Assembly: GCA_016742275.1 (NCBI GenBank)
Contig: JACVCD010000012.1
Location: forward strand, 1 to 64,000
Origin: Gemmatimonadaceae bacterium
GTDB taxonomy: Bacteria > Gemmatimonadota > Gemmatimonadetes > Gemmatimonadales > Gemmatimonadaceae
Direction of reading: 5' to 3'
DNA: 64,000 nucleotides
Made by a program: the position numbers and the translations under genes. The notes under the pieces were generated by a model. That model ran no database searches. It saw only the letters and a list, made by a program, of their open reading frames with translations, and had not been told where the DNA came from. The stretch's first letter is position 1, and every line of letters starts with the position of its first letter. Shown here one piece after another: positions 48,969 to 55,150 of this stretch.

Positions 48969-49628
48969 ATGACTACCGATCGCACACACGAAAACAACAT
49001 GCGTGACCGACGCCACTTTCTTTCGCGCCTTGCCGCGCTTGGTGCGGCACTCGGACTGGCGCCGCGCGCAGCCGAGGCGGCCGCGACTCCCGATACGCTC
49101 GATACCCTGCGCACTGCGGCCACCGATGACCCGTGGGTTGCCAAGCTCACGGGCAAGCATCGTGTGGTGTTTCACTCGCATATGCCGACCGAAGGATTGG
49201 CCGTTCGTTGGGCGCAGACATTTCTCGACACGCAGAAGAATTCGTATGGACTCACCGATCGCGATTCGAGTGTGATCGTGGGTCTCAATGGGCGATCGAT
49301 CGGCTGGTTCTTCGGTGATGAACTGTGGGCGGAACAGTCGGTGATTGGCGAGGTGATGGGCGCCCCCGGTGCACGAAATCCGCAGCGTGAGTTGGTCGCA
49401 GCTCTGCGAACGCGCGGTGTGATCCTGCTTGCGTGCGGCAATTCCATTCGTGCGTCGGGGCAGCGGTTTCTTCCAGCTCCGTCCCGCGATAACAACGAAG
49501 CGCGCACCGCTTTTGCCGAGCGGGTGCGCGCCACGTTGTTACCAGGCGTTGAAGTTGTGCCGTCGATGGTGGTGACGTTGCAGCAGGCGCAGGATCGCGG
49601 GTGCCGCTACATCTACGCTGGCGGATAG
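48969..49628 (+). CDS. Tat-exported DsrE-like family protein
   Basis: Tat-like signal RDRRHFLSRLAALGAALGLAPRAAEA; RGVILLACGNSIRASGQRF ... LLPGVEVVPSMVVTLQQAQDRGCRYIYAGG as in DsrE-fold proteins. Alternative start MRDRRHF at 49002. Confidence 0.75.
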   Translation: MTTDRTHENNMRDRRHFLSRLAALGAALGLAPRAAEAAATPDTLDTLRTAATDDPWVAKLTGKHRVVFHSHMPTEGLAVRWAQTFLDTQKNSYGLTDRDSSVIVGLNGRSIGWFFGDELWAEQSVIGEVMGAPGARNPQRELVAALRTRGVILLACGNSIRASGQRFLPAPSRDNNEARTAFAERVRATLLPGVEVVPSMVVTLQQAQDRGCRYIYAGG

Positions 49629-49743
49629 TTTCTGTTCTGCGAGCTACAAGCTCTCAATTGAGGTGGAAATCAAGTTCCTGTGCTAGTAACACCTGTTCAG
49701 TCATTCTGCTCCACACCTAACCAACTGTTGAGGTTAACTGCTT

Positions 49744-52700
49744 ATGATCGTTCGCCCACATATTGTCGAGCAGTTAAAGCGTTCCCTTTCGCCTGGTTCA
49801 CTCTGCGTCATTAAAGGAGAAATAGGAGTTGGAAAATCTACCTTCTGCAAGGAACTGCTATCGTCGATAGAGTCCGCAATCTTTGTAGAGGTCTCGCCTG
49901 ATACAATTTATGGCTACGACCAGGACCACTTTGCTGAGAAGTTGGGTCGTGAGTACAGTCGGGTCTCGGGCATGCCGTACACGCTGGAGGATGAGGCGAC
50001 TCCAATTACATCACTTCCGCGACACTTACGAGCGGTCATCCGTAGTCTAAAGAAGGATCAACTTCTACATGTGATCGTTGACGGTATTGCGGATATTGCC
50101 GAATCTTCCACTACGGCTGCGAGGCAACTACTTCAGCTAATACCCAGTGGGGAGAAATCGGTCTGTGCTGTACTTGCAGGCGGCGCCACGGCAATCCCGT
50201 TCGGAAACAATGCTCAATCTCGAGTCGAGGTATTCACTCTTCCAGCTCTGAGTCAACAGGAAGCTGCAAATCTGATTGCGGACTCCGGAGTTCATTCTGA
50301 CTTTCTAGATACAATTCAACGCATTGGTCAAGGCAATCCGGGAAAGCTTTCTTCTCTATGCCGCCTTGTGCTTGGGGCGTCATCTAGCACCGCCTCAGTG
50401 CCGTCGGGGAATTCCCTAGCTGAACTCTACCGCACAGAGCTGGATGCCGTGCAATCGCTCGACCAAAGCATAAGGCTTGCTCTAGCTATCCTTGCAAGTG
50501 ATGCAACCTTCTCCGACTTGGCAGCACTCAAGAAGGTGGCGAATCTCCATAGTGAGTTTGAGGCAACGTTGCAAGGACTCAGTTTCTTGACCATCAGTCA
50601 TGAAAAGGCTGCATACATTAACCAGTCAATTCGGATTGCCGCACAGCACTATTTTGGCGAACTTAGAGAAGAAGCTCTTCGTGCCATTACACGATACTAT
50701 GAGGAACACCCTGACGCTGACGTAGCACTCGGCCGTCTCGCCAAACTCCTCCAGCAGCAAGGGGAAAGTGAAAAAATTATTGTCCATCTGTCAAACGACC
50801 AAATCAGTGCAGCGGTGCAACGAGCTGCTTCTACAACAGTATTGCTCGACGCAACACTAGTTGGAGTCGATGCCGCACGTAGCCTTGGACGTGAATTCGA
50901 TACCTGTAGATTAGCTATTGCTAGCACTGCGTTAAGGTCAGCAGTTACAGACGCATCTGTATTGAAGCGTGCCAGAGCGCTTGCTTGGTTAGATCGTGTG
51001 GATGAGGCTCTTATTCTTGCACGGTCAATTCCAATCTTGGAACTTCGCATTGAAGTGTTTTGCGCAGTGCTCGCGGCGATCGCAGAGAGGGCGGATGTCG
51101 TAGATGAGGCTCTTGTAGCTGAACTTGATCGTGATATTGGAATACTCAAGCCAGGCGCATTTGGCGACCGAGCGGGCGAACTTGGTGCTCAGCTACTTCG
51201 TGTTTCTGCATCTAGTGCGATCGAGATGATTCGAAGATCCGTCGGAGAGGATCAGACTGGTACGAGGCTGGATCTAACTTTCGTTCGTCTTGCAATTGCC
51301 GGCGCGCGAAAGCCCGGAGCTGGTGCAGGATCTCTCGAGCTTGCCGCGAATAACGTGCAAGATCCAACGCTTCGAACGCTTCTCGCTAGTAGCGCAAACG
51401 CACTAGAGGGAGCGTCAGCGTTAGCTGTGATTGAACATACCCGAACACTCGATCGTACGGACGAGAGAATGTTCCTTCTTGAGTCGTGGATGCGATCGAA
51501 TTCATCGAGATCTGGGGCCATGCAGGTTCTGAGGCATGCTCTGGATGAAGGCAAAAAATCTGGAGGGTACAATGTCAATGCCCTTTCGCTCTATGCGCTA
51601 GCGGAGGCACTACTATTTGAGAAGTCGCGACAGAGTGTATCAACTTTCATTAATGAAATTGATCAACTCAAGCCTGCAGCAAAGGCGAATAGTCCAGCCA
51701 CGGACCTAGTGGCATTAGAGTGTCGACTTGCGCGCGCAGAAGTGCACTCTGGTGACGCCGATGCTGCGTACAAGAGAATAGCCTCGGTCGCCGACTCGGT
51801 TCAGAGGCAAAGTTCGCTAGTGGACCAACTTGCTGGCCTCTCACTAGTGGTTTCAACACTAGCTTCTAGCGATGAGATTCGATTCTTCGACAAGGATCTA
51901 GACTTAGAGAGTTACTGCGTTTTGCAGATTGAAGCTCTGTCAAGGTCACTACTTGAGGATACAGCAGATCACTATGAGGTCTTTGGCCCTGCGTGTAGAG
52001 TCCTCGCACGACGTCGGCCAGATCTTGCTAGAAAGCTTGCAGGTTCACTAAACCTAAGCTTCAGAAGGAACGCGTGTTTGCGCGACATTGTTCGCAATCA
52101 CACTCGCATGCCAATTGCTAGTTGGAGTTTGGAGGAGCTAAGAGCTGCGCTCACCGAGATCGAGGATGTAGTGTATCGTGATTCCGCTGTCGAAGTCACT
52201 CTTGCCGCCGTCTCGGGGCAGGCCCTGAATCACTGCTCAGATGAACTACTATCTCTCTTGGAGTTCGCCGCAACGTCCTCTTCAGCGCCGCACATTCGAT
52301 CAAAAGCTTATGCGCAACTCGCCTGTCTCGATTTTCCGCTAAAGGAAGAATTCAGGAAGTTGTCTATCGCCCGGTGCAATGAGGCGCTAGCGCAAATAGC
52401 ATCACCGTCTGATCGATGCAGTGCCATTTACTCCATTGTACCCATACTCGCACGTTTTTCGAAATCTGATGCCGACGTAGCGTTCGGAGTCGCTGACTCT
52501 TTACGCCGACAACATCCCGTAGAGGACGTTGAAGAAGATTCTGGCATTCTCTCTCTAGAGCTTGCAATTCGCTGCCTACAGGCTACTGCAGACGAATACC
52601 CATCCCGGATGGTCAATGAAGTTTGTCAACAGGTTCATTTAGTCGCGAGCTCTCCTGCAAGAGCTCGGCTATGGTCCTTGCTATCTGGTGCAGTGCGAAA

Positions 52701-54552
52701 GGCCGGGTATCCACAAGAGGCGCTATCGCTTGCGACGTCGTATCTGATTCCGCTCCTGTCTACAGAGTCTAGAGCTGATCTACTCTCACATTATGAGACC
52801 CTTGTCCACGCTGCGCCGTCTCTGTGGCGTGAGGCAAGGTCCACTCTGCAAATACATCTCGACACACTTCCAGACAGTCTTCATACTCGAATTGTTAGTC
52901 GACTGGCGGACTACGTGGCTTGGCCAGTATTTGACGGAGACCCGATCGACCCAATCGTTCGTGGCACACCTCGCCTAGAATACACACAAGTCTGCGATCT
53001 TCTTCTCCTAGCAGCATTGAGTCGCGATGATGCTATGACAGCAAACATCTCGCGAAGAATATTTTCGGCTTCACAGCGAGCCAAGGCTTCTCTGACTCGG
53101 ACACAGTTAACGTACATAGGTGCAGAACTCTGCAGGCTGGCGCTACGCTTTCCAGTAGAGAACGGTGGTATTCAGCATGAGGGCTGGAGAATCGTTATCG
53201 AGTCTCTTGGCCGAAAGATAAAGGGGGAGGCAAACGATGCCTACAAACGCGAGATACTTGAACGGGCGAGAAAACTACCGAATCGAGCGGATATCCCCTT
53301 CGTTCTTACGCATATCGCTGTAGATGTCTCAAGCGCGAAAGAACGAGATGTGCTGATCGACGAAATTATGGATCGTTGTTCAAAACTCACGTTCGCGGGA
53401 GATGCGATTGATCGATTCTTGTATCTGGCTGAAAGCTTGGCCGCAGAATCATCTCCGTCTACTAAGCGGGTGTACGGCCGCCTCGCGACCTTTGTTAAGG
53501 AATCCACTATCGCTGAAGACGAAAGGAGGGAGCATCGAATCGTTCAAAGCGCATATGCGTTTGATCAAGAGTTGGGCGCGCAGGTAGCATCTGTGCTTGA
53601 CTCTGATCTTTCAAAGAGGACCAGTCGTGATGAAGGAGATTTCCGTTCGGCGAAGAGTAAATACAATGCTCGAGACGCAGGATTTGCCCAAGCATTGGCC
53701 GCTGATGATGTCGAGCAGATTTGCGAAGCATTGCTTGGCTCCCTCAGTGGATCCAGAATCTCCTTTGCGCGAAGTGAGCTCCGCGTTGAACTCCTCCGCC
53801 ATGCGGCTTCACTGCCTACGCGGGACGCCTACTGGACCATGTCCTTCGTAATCGAAAGTGCTGTTGCTGAATCGAAGGCCACGCGTGGCGCACTGCATAC
53901 GGCAGCTACGATGTTCGATGCATGCCTGCGCGGTGCGCGAGTAAGTGAATCGCTTAGAAGGAGGGTTGGTAACCGAGGAAAGACAATGCAGGACCCGGAA
54001 GTCACATCAGCAGGCGAAGTTTCCAACCTAGTTGTATCTGCGGTGCATGAAATAGCCAAGGCAGAGGCAAAACTCTTTGCTTGGCTTCAGTCAGTTGGAT
54101 CAGAGCCGATAATCATCGTCGACCCGTTCTTCAAACCCGATGATCTAGGGTATGTGGTAAAGGCTCGTCAGAATTGCCCAGATGCACCGATAAGAATTCT
54201 GACTGGATTACAGCAAGGATATAGCTTCGAAAACGCCTCCGCATTCAAAGAGGCTTTGATGGTGCAATGGAGAAGGTTCTCCGCTGAACCCGCACAAGAT
54301 ATTATTGTTGCGGTCTATATGACCGAGGCCTCTCGAAAGTGCCCGTTTCATGACCGTTGGTGGCTGTCTACAAACAGCGGTATGCGCCTTGGGACATCGT
54401 CATCCGGAATAGGGAACCGCATCGCGGAGATCTCGGAGCTCGCCGACAACGAGCTCCGTAACCTGCAAGACAATTGTCTTCCTTATAGCAGACTGGAAGC
54501 GCGCTTCTTTCAGGACGAGCGACTCCTGCGCCAGATCATCTCGCTTGAGTAG
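49744..54552 (+). CDS. Large (1602 aa) P-loop NTPase with helical-repeat-like middle and C-terminal PLD-like module; candidate STAND-type conflict/defence protein
   Basis: N-terminal Walker A KGEIGVGKSTF (G25-T33) and Walker B-like LLHVIVDG; wHTH-like IRLALAILASDATFSDLAAL; long amphipathic Ala/Leu/Arg repeats; C-terminal IIIVDPFFKPDDLGYVV...IRILTG...CPFHDRWWLSTNSGMRLGTSSSGIGNRIAEISEL. Clearly AT-richer than neighbours. Confidence 0.75.
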   Translation: MIVRPHIVEQLKRSLSPGSLCVIKGEIGVGKSTFCKELLSSIESAIFVEVSPDTIYGYDQDHFAEKLGREYSRVSGMPYTLEDEATPITSLPRHLRAVIRSLKKDQLLHVIVDGIADIAESSTTAARQLLQLIPSGEKSVCAVLAGGATAIPFGNNAQSRVEVFTLPALSQQEAANLIADSGVHSDFLDTIQRIGQGNPGKLSSLCRLVLGASSSTASVPSGNSLAELYRTELDAVQSLDQSIRLALAILASDATFSDLAALKKVANLHSEFEATLQGLSFLTISHEKAAYINQSIRIAAQHYFGELREEALRAITRYYEEHPDADVALGRLAKLLQQQGESEKIIVHLSNDQISAAVQRAASTTVLLDATLVGVDAARSLGREFDTCRLAIASTALRSAVTDASVLKRARALAWLDRVDEALILARSIPILELRIEVFCAVLAAIAERADVVDEALVAELDRDIGILKPGAFGDRAGELGAQLLRVSASSAIEMIRRSVGEDQTGTRLDLTFVRLAIAGARKPGAGAGSLELAANNVQDPTLRTLLASSANALEGASALAVIEHTRTLDRTDERMFLLESWMRSNSSRSGAMQVLRHALDEGKKSGGYNVNALSLYALAEALLFEKSRQSVSTFINEIDQLKPAAKANSPATDLVALECRLARAEVHSGDADAAYKRIASVADSVQRQSSLVDQLAGLSLVVSTLASSDEIRFFDKDLDLESYCVLQIEALSRSLLEDTADHYEVFGPACRVLARRRPDLARKLAGSLNLSFRRNACLRDIVRNHTRMPIASWSLEELRAALTEIEDVVYRDSAVEVTLAAVSGQALNHCSDELLSLLEFAATSSSAPHIRSKAYAQLACLDFPLKEEFRKLSIARCNEALAQIASPSDRCSAIYSIVPILARFSKSDADVAFGVADSLRRQHPVEDVEEDSGILSLELAIRCLQATADEYPSRMVNEVCQQVHLVASSPARARLWSLLSGAVRKAGYPQEALSLATSYLIPLLSTESRADLLSHYETLVHAAPSLWREARSTLQIHLDTLPDSLHTRIVSRLADYVAWPVFDGDPIDPIVRGTPRLEYTQVCDLLLLAALSRDDAMTANISRRIFSASQRAKASLTRTQLTYIGAELCRLALRFPVENGGIQHEGWRIVIESLGRKIKGEANDAYKREILERARKLPNRADIPFVLTHIAVDVSSAKERDVLIDEIMDRCSKLTFAGDAIDRFLYLAESLAAESSPSTKRVYGRLATFVKESTIAEDERREHRIVQSAYAFDQELGAQVASVLDSDLSKRTSRDEGDFRSAKSKYNARDAGFAQALAADDVEQICEALLGSLSGSRISFARSELRVELLRHAASLPTRDAYWTMSFVIESAVAESKATRGALHTAATMFDACLRGARVSESLRRRVGNRGKTMQDPEVTSAGEVSNLVVSAVHEIAKAEAKLFAWLQSVGSEPIIIVDPFFKPDDLGYVVKARQNCPDAPIRILTGLQQGYSFENASAFKEALMVQWRRFSAEPAQDIIVAVYMTEASRKCPFHDRWWLSTNSGMRLGTSSSGIGNRIAEISELADNELRNLQDNCLPYSRLEARFFQDERLLRQIISLE

Positions 54553-54595
54553 GCACGCTCTTTAGTTCACAGTGCCAAAGCTGTCCACACTTCGG

Positions 54596-55150
54596 CTAGA
54601 TGCGCGGCAGCGTTACGCCGTGCTGTCCCTGATACTTGCCCTTCTTGTCGCCGTAGCTGACTTCGGGATCTTCGTCGCCGGTGAAAAACACCACCTGCGC
54701 GATGCCTTCGTTCGAATAGATCTTTGCGGGCAGCGGCGTGGTGTTGGAGATTTCCAGTGTCACGTAGCCTTCCCATTCCGGCTCGAACGGCGTCACGTTG
54801 GTGATGATGCCGCAGCGGGCGTACGTGCTCTTGCCCACGGTGAGCGTGAGCACGTTACGCGGGATGCGGAAGTACTCGACACTGCGCGCCAGTGCAAACG
54901 AGTTGGGAGGAACGATGCAGACATCGCCTTCAAATTCCACAAAGCTCTTCGGATCAAACTGCTTGGGATCCACGATGGAGCTCAACACGTTGGTAAAGAT
55001 CCGGTACTCGGATGCGACACGCATGTCGTACCCGTACGAGCTCACGCCATAGGAGATGACGCCCTGGCGGACCTGACGGTCTTCGAACGGATCGATCATG
55101 CCATGTTCGCGTGCCATACGCGTGATCCAGCGGTCTGAGCAGAGCCCCAT
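54596..55150 (-). CDS. dcd: dCTP deaminase (ORF extends to 55234; Met at 55150 preferred)
   Basis: [104 protein letters not shown]. Confidence 0.95.

Follow-up and report, generated by a model that had tools for sequence, protein, structure and literature searches.

A horizontally acquired, solitary STAND-type protein with a PLD-like C-terminal domain: a candidate defence gene in a Gemmatimonadaceae genome

A foreign single-gene cassette between dsrE and dcd

The window, which is the whole 64,000-nucleotide stretch of the Gemmatimonadaceae contig that we analysed, carries a gene for a giant 1602-residue protein between a dsrE-like gene and dcd:

49625 to 54597, no strand assigned: foreign single-gene cassette reaching from the dsrE-like gene to dcd (break in homology with same-genus genomes; GC dip)
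49744 to 54552, forward strand: gene for the 1602-aa STAND-NTPase/repeat/PLD-like protein (open reading frame call; full-length homologues)

The frame is single and uninterrupted, with exactly the coordinates given in an earlier note on this DNA, and its open extension upstream is only two codons long. Its homologues align end to end; because the 12 other members of its family do so along the full length or along the part present on their contig, the frame is not a chance one. The gene has a GC content of 0.51 against 0.61 around it and makes the sole GC dip in the 64-kb window (0.50-0.54 against about 0.62); its third-position GC is 0.47, compared with 0.67-0.78 in the neighbours tested. Genomes of the same genus share a conserved gene order here: cytochrome c, the dsrE-like gene, dcd, nuoA and nuoB. 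Homology between the window and these relatives breaks off near 49624 and is picked up again at 54596-54598. The foreign segment is thus a single gene flanked by about 120 bp upstream and 45 bp downstream, which bears out the earlier statement that no partner gene is present. Neither a target-site duplication nor inverted repeats were found at the cassette ends (the longest common direct word has 7 bases), and no mobile element was seen around this copy, whose flanks are housekeeping genes. The 1602-aa gene is a horizontally acquired single-gene cassette.

The gap between dsrE and dcd varies within the genus (L074, L076, L084, L085, L080, L082): it is empty or short in many genomes, contains other genes in two relatives and is occupied by the giant gene in the window. 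In four same-genus relatives it holds a membrane protein gene that we take to be of the DUF389 type, of which no remnant was found in the window.

Domain architecture of the protein

The features recognised within the gene, all on the forward strand, are as follows:

49744 to 50238, forward: P-loop NTPase core, residues 1-165 (Pfam AAA_22 2.8e-7, AAA_16 7.5e-7; AlphaFold model)
49816 to 49839, forward: Walker A GEIGVGKS, residues 25-32, with K31 as its Lys (alignment)
50068 to 50085, forward: Walker B HVIVDG, residues 109-114 (D113 and G114 invariant in the alignment)
50239 to 50448, forward: helical segment, residues 166-235, with the STAND GxP-type motif GNPGK at about 198-202 (alignment, model)
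50449 to 50658, forward: winged-helix-like domain, residues 236-305 (model)
50659 to 54018, forward: TPR-like alpha-solenoid, residues 306-1425, putative sensor (two models; Foldseek matches to solenoids and to STAND-TPR 6mfv)
53176 to 53184, forward: HEG motif specific to the family, at residues 1145-1147 of the repeat region (its H and G do not vary in alignment A2)
54019 to 54549, forward: PLD-like C-terminal domain of HDR type, residues 1426-1602 (NF040700 1.2e-4, fold search, hhalign)
54121 to 54132, forward: DPFF motif, residues 1460-1463 (all 13 of 13 members keep D1460 and F1463)
54349 to 54357, forward: HDR motif replacing HxK, residues 1536-1538 (R in 13 of 13; H and D in 12 of 13)

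Judged by its motifs and predicted structure, the N-terminal region is a STAND-type NTPase followed by a winged helix. Several features that characterise STAND proteins are present together: a P-loop with a Walker B of the form hhhhD[GDE], a GxP motif, a winged helix and superstructure-forming repeats. Our AlphaFold model of residues 1-1195 (mean pLDDT 72, five sequences in the alignment) has an alpha/beta NTPase at about 1-165, GNPGK in the helical segment that follows, a winged helix at about 241-303 (helices 241-252, 259-266 and 272-277, hairpin 282-291, helix 294-303) and then hairpins to its end. The Walker A motif, the Walker B-like motif and the wHTH-like stretch proposed earlier from the letters have all been located. 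The Pfam NACHT model scores 12.1 bits on the window protein, below its cut-off of 26.7, and relatives match NACHT (best 7e-7), NB-ARC (2.8e-4) and nSTAND models. The P-loop Lys is retained in 9 of the 11 members possessing that part; it is absent from the Prevotella (L008, GIGTTT) and Aromatoleum (L010, GDGATT) proteins, the rest of which is conserved. A candidate for the sensor arginine after strand 4 appears in L003 only (SGR) and is not conserved across the alignment.

Behind the winged helix, the earlier note had seen about 1000 residues of helical repeats. Both models contain the repeats, but their extent is corrected to about 306-1425 (roughly 1100 residues), with the second model (residues 1080-1602) adding further hairpins to about residue 1400. 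The best Foldseek matches of the first model are TPR/HEAT solenoids and the STAND-TPR structure 6mfv, with NLRP9 and NLRP14 lower in the list; their TM-scores are low, probably because the curvature of the solenoid is uncertain. Inducer sensing in STAND proteins is usually carried out by C-terminal repeats (PMC7159879), and by analogy the solenoid is a putative ligand sensor.

This arrangement recalls MalT and PH0952 (6mfv), STAND proteins with a TPR sensor that likewise have an N-terminal NTPase, a winged helix and a TPR-like solenoid; MalT also places its output after the sensor. The solenoid of the 1602-aa protein is, however, several times longer, and a PLD-like tail replaces the LuxR-type HTH. 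With Avs/AVAST and bNACHT proteins it has in common the STAND core, the long helical sensor and the coding by a large, solitary, defence-associated gene, whereas the N-terminal effector of Avs/AVAST is missing and the effector candidate is C-terminal: the NTPase starts at residue 1, and relatives have only a short extension ahead of it. The order with the NTPase first and the effector last had been called inverted. This holds in comparison with Avs proteins, but MalT-type STAND proteins share the order, which is therefore unusual among defence STANDs and precedented among STANDs. In our searches the NCBIfam Avs4 model gave E 0.09 and 9.9 bits on the window protein (cutoff 1500), PADLOC Avs1b was matched by only one member (3.8e-5), and no significant full-length Avs match was found.

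The C-terminal tail forms an alpha/beta domain in the model of residues 1080-1602, with pLDDT mostly 80-90. PDB matches to it include TrmBL2, FAM83A (TMt 0.56), SauUSI, BfiI, a Streptomyces PLD and PPK1, and envelope PLDs and a NucT-like nuclease are among the matches in viral structures; E-values are weak or modest (best 3e-3), partly because much of the searched model is solenoid. The sequence profile of the same stretch weakly matches CDP-diacylglycerol-serine phosphatidyltransferase (E 0.039), and the kinship to MIT_C that we had presumed was not shown by the PDB searches. The earlier reading depended on the prediction of an NTPase and a PLD fold; the models give both, the latter with weak fold-search E-values, and a PLD fold of the tail is supported at the level of prediction. 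The module thus stands as a distinct C-terminal PLD-like domain, but its boundary is now 1426-1602 and it holds one HxR half-motif rather than HKD.

Conservation along the protein is highest in the tail (28% mean pairwise identity versus 18-24% elsewhere): besides D1460 and F1463, R1538 and G1550 are invariant, and H1536 and D1537 are nearly so. Conservation this strict speaks for a functional site, whether for catalysis or for binding. Like the PLD superfamily nucleases BfiI, SauUSI and NucT, the tail has the fold and the H, G and S positions, but it differs from them in carrying HxR for HxK and a single half per chain, with no second motif. The position of the HKD Lys is Arg in all 13 members, preceded by His in 12 and replaced by KxR in the thirteenth (L006, His lost), and none of the tails contains the catalytic motif HxK(x)4D. 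The second motif for an active site could come from oligomerisation. Because a change of Lys to Arg at the HKD site inactivates classical PLDs, nuclease or classical PLD chemistry of the tail is doubtful, and owing to the HDR motif the effector claim is weaker than the earlier note stated. Indeed, K898R of PLD1 and K758R of PLD2 serve as inactive PLD mutants (PMC3648575). Once clustered by oligomerisation, the tails may cleave nucleic acid, have a lipid substrate or serve for binding alone.

The tail domain has a counterpart in the VPA1262 family (NCBIfam NF040700/NF040699). VPA1262_N is matched by 6 of the 8 members tested, and in the window protein the match falls at the end of the model; NF040700 gives 20.9 bits there against a cut-off of 80, with only the last ~120 positions matching. 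An hhalign comparison of the tail profile with two VPA1262_N proteins gave E 8e-16 over 142 columns, and the signature DPYF...HDR[WF]...LGTS is common to both. The two VPA1262 proteins have an N-terminal part of their own, without a STAND NTPase or long solenoid. The Prevotella genome that carries a family member also encodes, in a prophage-like region (L071, 6955-8541), a VPA1262_N protein bearing the HDR domain.

Distribution and neighbourhoods of the family

We found 13 members of the family, which come from Gemmatimonadota, Bacteroidota, Bacillota and Betaproteobacteria; most of the others share 17-25% identity with the window protein. Two further Gemmatimonadota genomes (G032 and G103) have one, as do Paenibacillus, Prevotella and Hymenobacter (the last copy cut by a contig end); members in the Bacteroidota genomes G883 and G1068 are whole or divided across contig ends. 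The member in G1043, also of the Bacteroidota, is interrupted by an IS21 element, whose istA/istB-like pair splits it (L065, 9253-11554). Four members (Exiguobacterium, Carnobacterium, Cytobacillus and Aromatoleum) lie on plasmids, some near integrases, and the window copy and most of the others are chromosomal. Full-length members occur in at least 3 of 349 Gemmatimonadota genomes surveyed (window genome counted), 4 of 396 from the Bacteroidota and 1 of 398 from the Bacillota (centre genome counted in each of these two); these are lower bounds because the first pass scored few candidates per genome. Survey matches at E 1e-3 to 1e-12, mostly to the NTPase end only and two to the tail only, were excluded from membership.

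None of the other same-genus genomes sampled carries the gene, and scans of genome contigs and viral contigs with a single protein as query returned no matches. In phage records, one query gave only a weak match to LP65, covering 8% of the protein, and another gave none, so that no phage or prophage copy was found in these records or in the single-protein viral contig scans. The members examined occupy differing loci, with no conserved neighbour or operon. We looked for a single syntenic housekeeping locus across the phylum, which the earlier note would have taken as evidence against its proposal, and found members patchily distributed at varied loci, for which reason we rejected a housekeeping role. 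No Pfam, NCBIfam or PADLOC family spans the whole protein, in agreement with the earlier view that it is undescribed, and no description of the family was found in the accessible literature that we searched. It is apparently a rare, widely transferred NLR-like family, unnamed so far, and the case for a new family of the known STAND kind is convincing.

Several members stand beside defence genes, here adjoining or within ~6 kb unless stated. These neighbours are TmtA (8e-136) and AriA/OLD (2e-37) in G883; PDC-S69 (1e-105), PDC-S68 (4e-98) and a McrBC-like pair in Paenibacillus; AbiEi/AbiEii in Prevotella; an NsnA-like DUF262 protein (2e-56) in Exiguobacterium; Fic PDC-S04 (1e-94) in Carnobacterium; and CHAT in Cytobacillus, with KwaB-like and HEPN-MNT genes somewhat farther off. 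Another STAND or Avs-like gene is near the members of G032, G103 and Aromatoleum (weak matches). In G032, what matches ShosA may be no more than an ordinary DprA. A divergently transcribed 1400-aa neighbour in L068 (12278-16480), with a weakly LmuA-like N-terminus and nSTAND_NTPase5, looks from its sequence like another STAND defence protein, and a 1486-aa STAND-like protein with a weak Avs4 match (L010, 4041-8501) lies near the Aromatoleum copy between integrase clusters.

The survey of genomic context proposed earlier gives a mixed answer: several members have defence genes at their side, but the window copy has none, its flanks and those of the G1068 copy being housekeeping, and the control is small. 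At E 1e-8 or better, 54 flanking proteins matched 172 PADLOC families, and 44 were matched by 90 control proteins drawn from 8 randomly chosen stretches of these genomes, in a set so redundant that a single OLD protein matches over a hundred families. The control matches included a PD-Lambda-5 pair and a methylase, and one control stretch was the Prevotella prophage-like region with a VPA1262_N gene. Given this redundancy and the small sample, the defence association is suggestive and not proof.

Proposed function and alternatives

From its spread on plasmids and its adjacency to anti-virus genes, the family is probably a one-gene defence system. On balance, we favour the reading that this solitary gene came in by horizontal transfer and encodes a STAND switch (NLR/MalT-like) that most likely serves anti-phage or anti-plasmid defence, with a C-terminal non-canonical PLD-like output. 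STAND proteins at rest are ADP-bound monomers that multimerise upon binding an inducer (PMC6468293). In our scheme, the solenoid would keep the protein in this resting state; when it binds a product of the invader, ATP would open the protein, and the opened form would oligomerise and bring the C-terminal half-PLD domains together. The gathered tails could then form a composite, non-canonical phosphodiesterase, or could work by binding nucleic acid or phospholipid as a cluster; either way, the infected cell would be stopped.

One alternative, possible though we would not bet on it, keeps the defence role and takes the tail for a pseudo-PLD that serves as a second binding or multimerisation domain, the killing being done by nucleotide depletion through the NTPase or by a recruited host factor. 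The lone half-motif, the universal Arg and the lost His of L006 fit this, as do the non-catalytic proteins FAM83A and TrmBL2 among the fold matches; yet the tail is conserved better than the NTPase, down to its invariant residues, and the two members without the P-loop Lys are hard to reconcile with NTP depletion. Two further readings are improbable, to about the same degree. A MalT-like STAND regulator of transcription or signalling, with no defence role, would have the same order of NTPase, winged helix, TPR sensor and C-terminal output, and PLD-like domains are present in TrmB-type regulators too, but no C-terminal HTH was found in the protein, and a rare, mobile family with plasmid-borne copies, defence neighbourhoods and no conserved neighbour or operon is not what such a regulator leads one to expect. 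A selfish or stability function for the carrier element, such as plasmid maintenance or the exclusion of rival elements, would suit the four plasmid copies and the nearby integrases, and is at odds with the chromosomal position of the window copy and most others and with the lack of an element around the former. Decay without function, to which the IS21 insertion and the two missing P-loop lysines might point, is very improbable for frames of ~1600 codons that stay open in different phyla and keep their motifs at 20% identity.

Within the favoured reading of a defence switch, a more specific version is conceivable, though less likely than not: a new single-gene NLR-like defence family in which a half-PLD of a new HDR type, found also in VPA1262, may be a non-canonical effector that forms composite sites across protomers on oligomerisation. 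If this is true, the family would represent another route from sensing to killing among NLR-like proteins of bacteria, and the unexplained domain of VPA1262 would gain a testable role.
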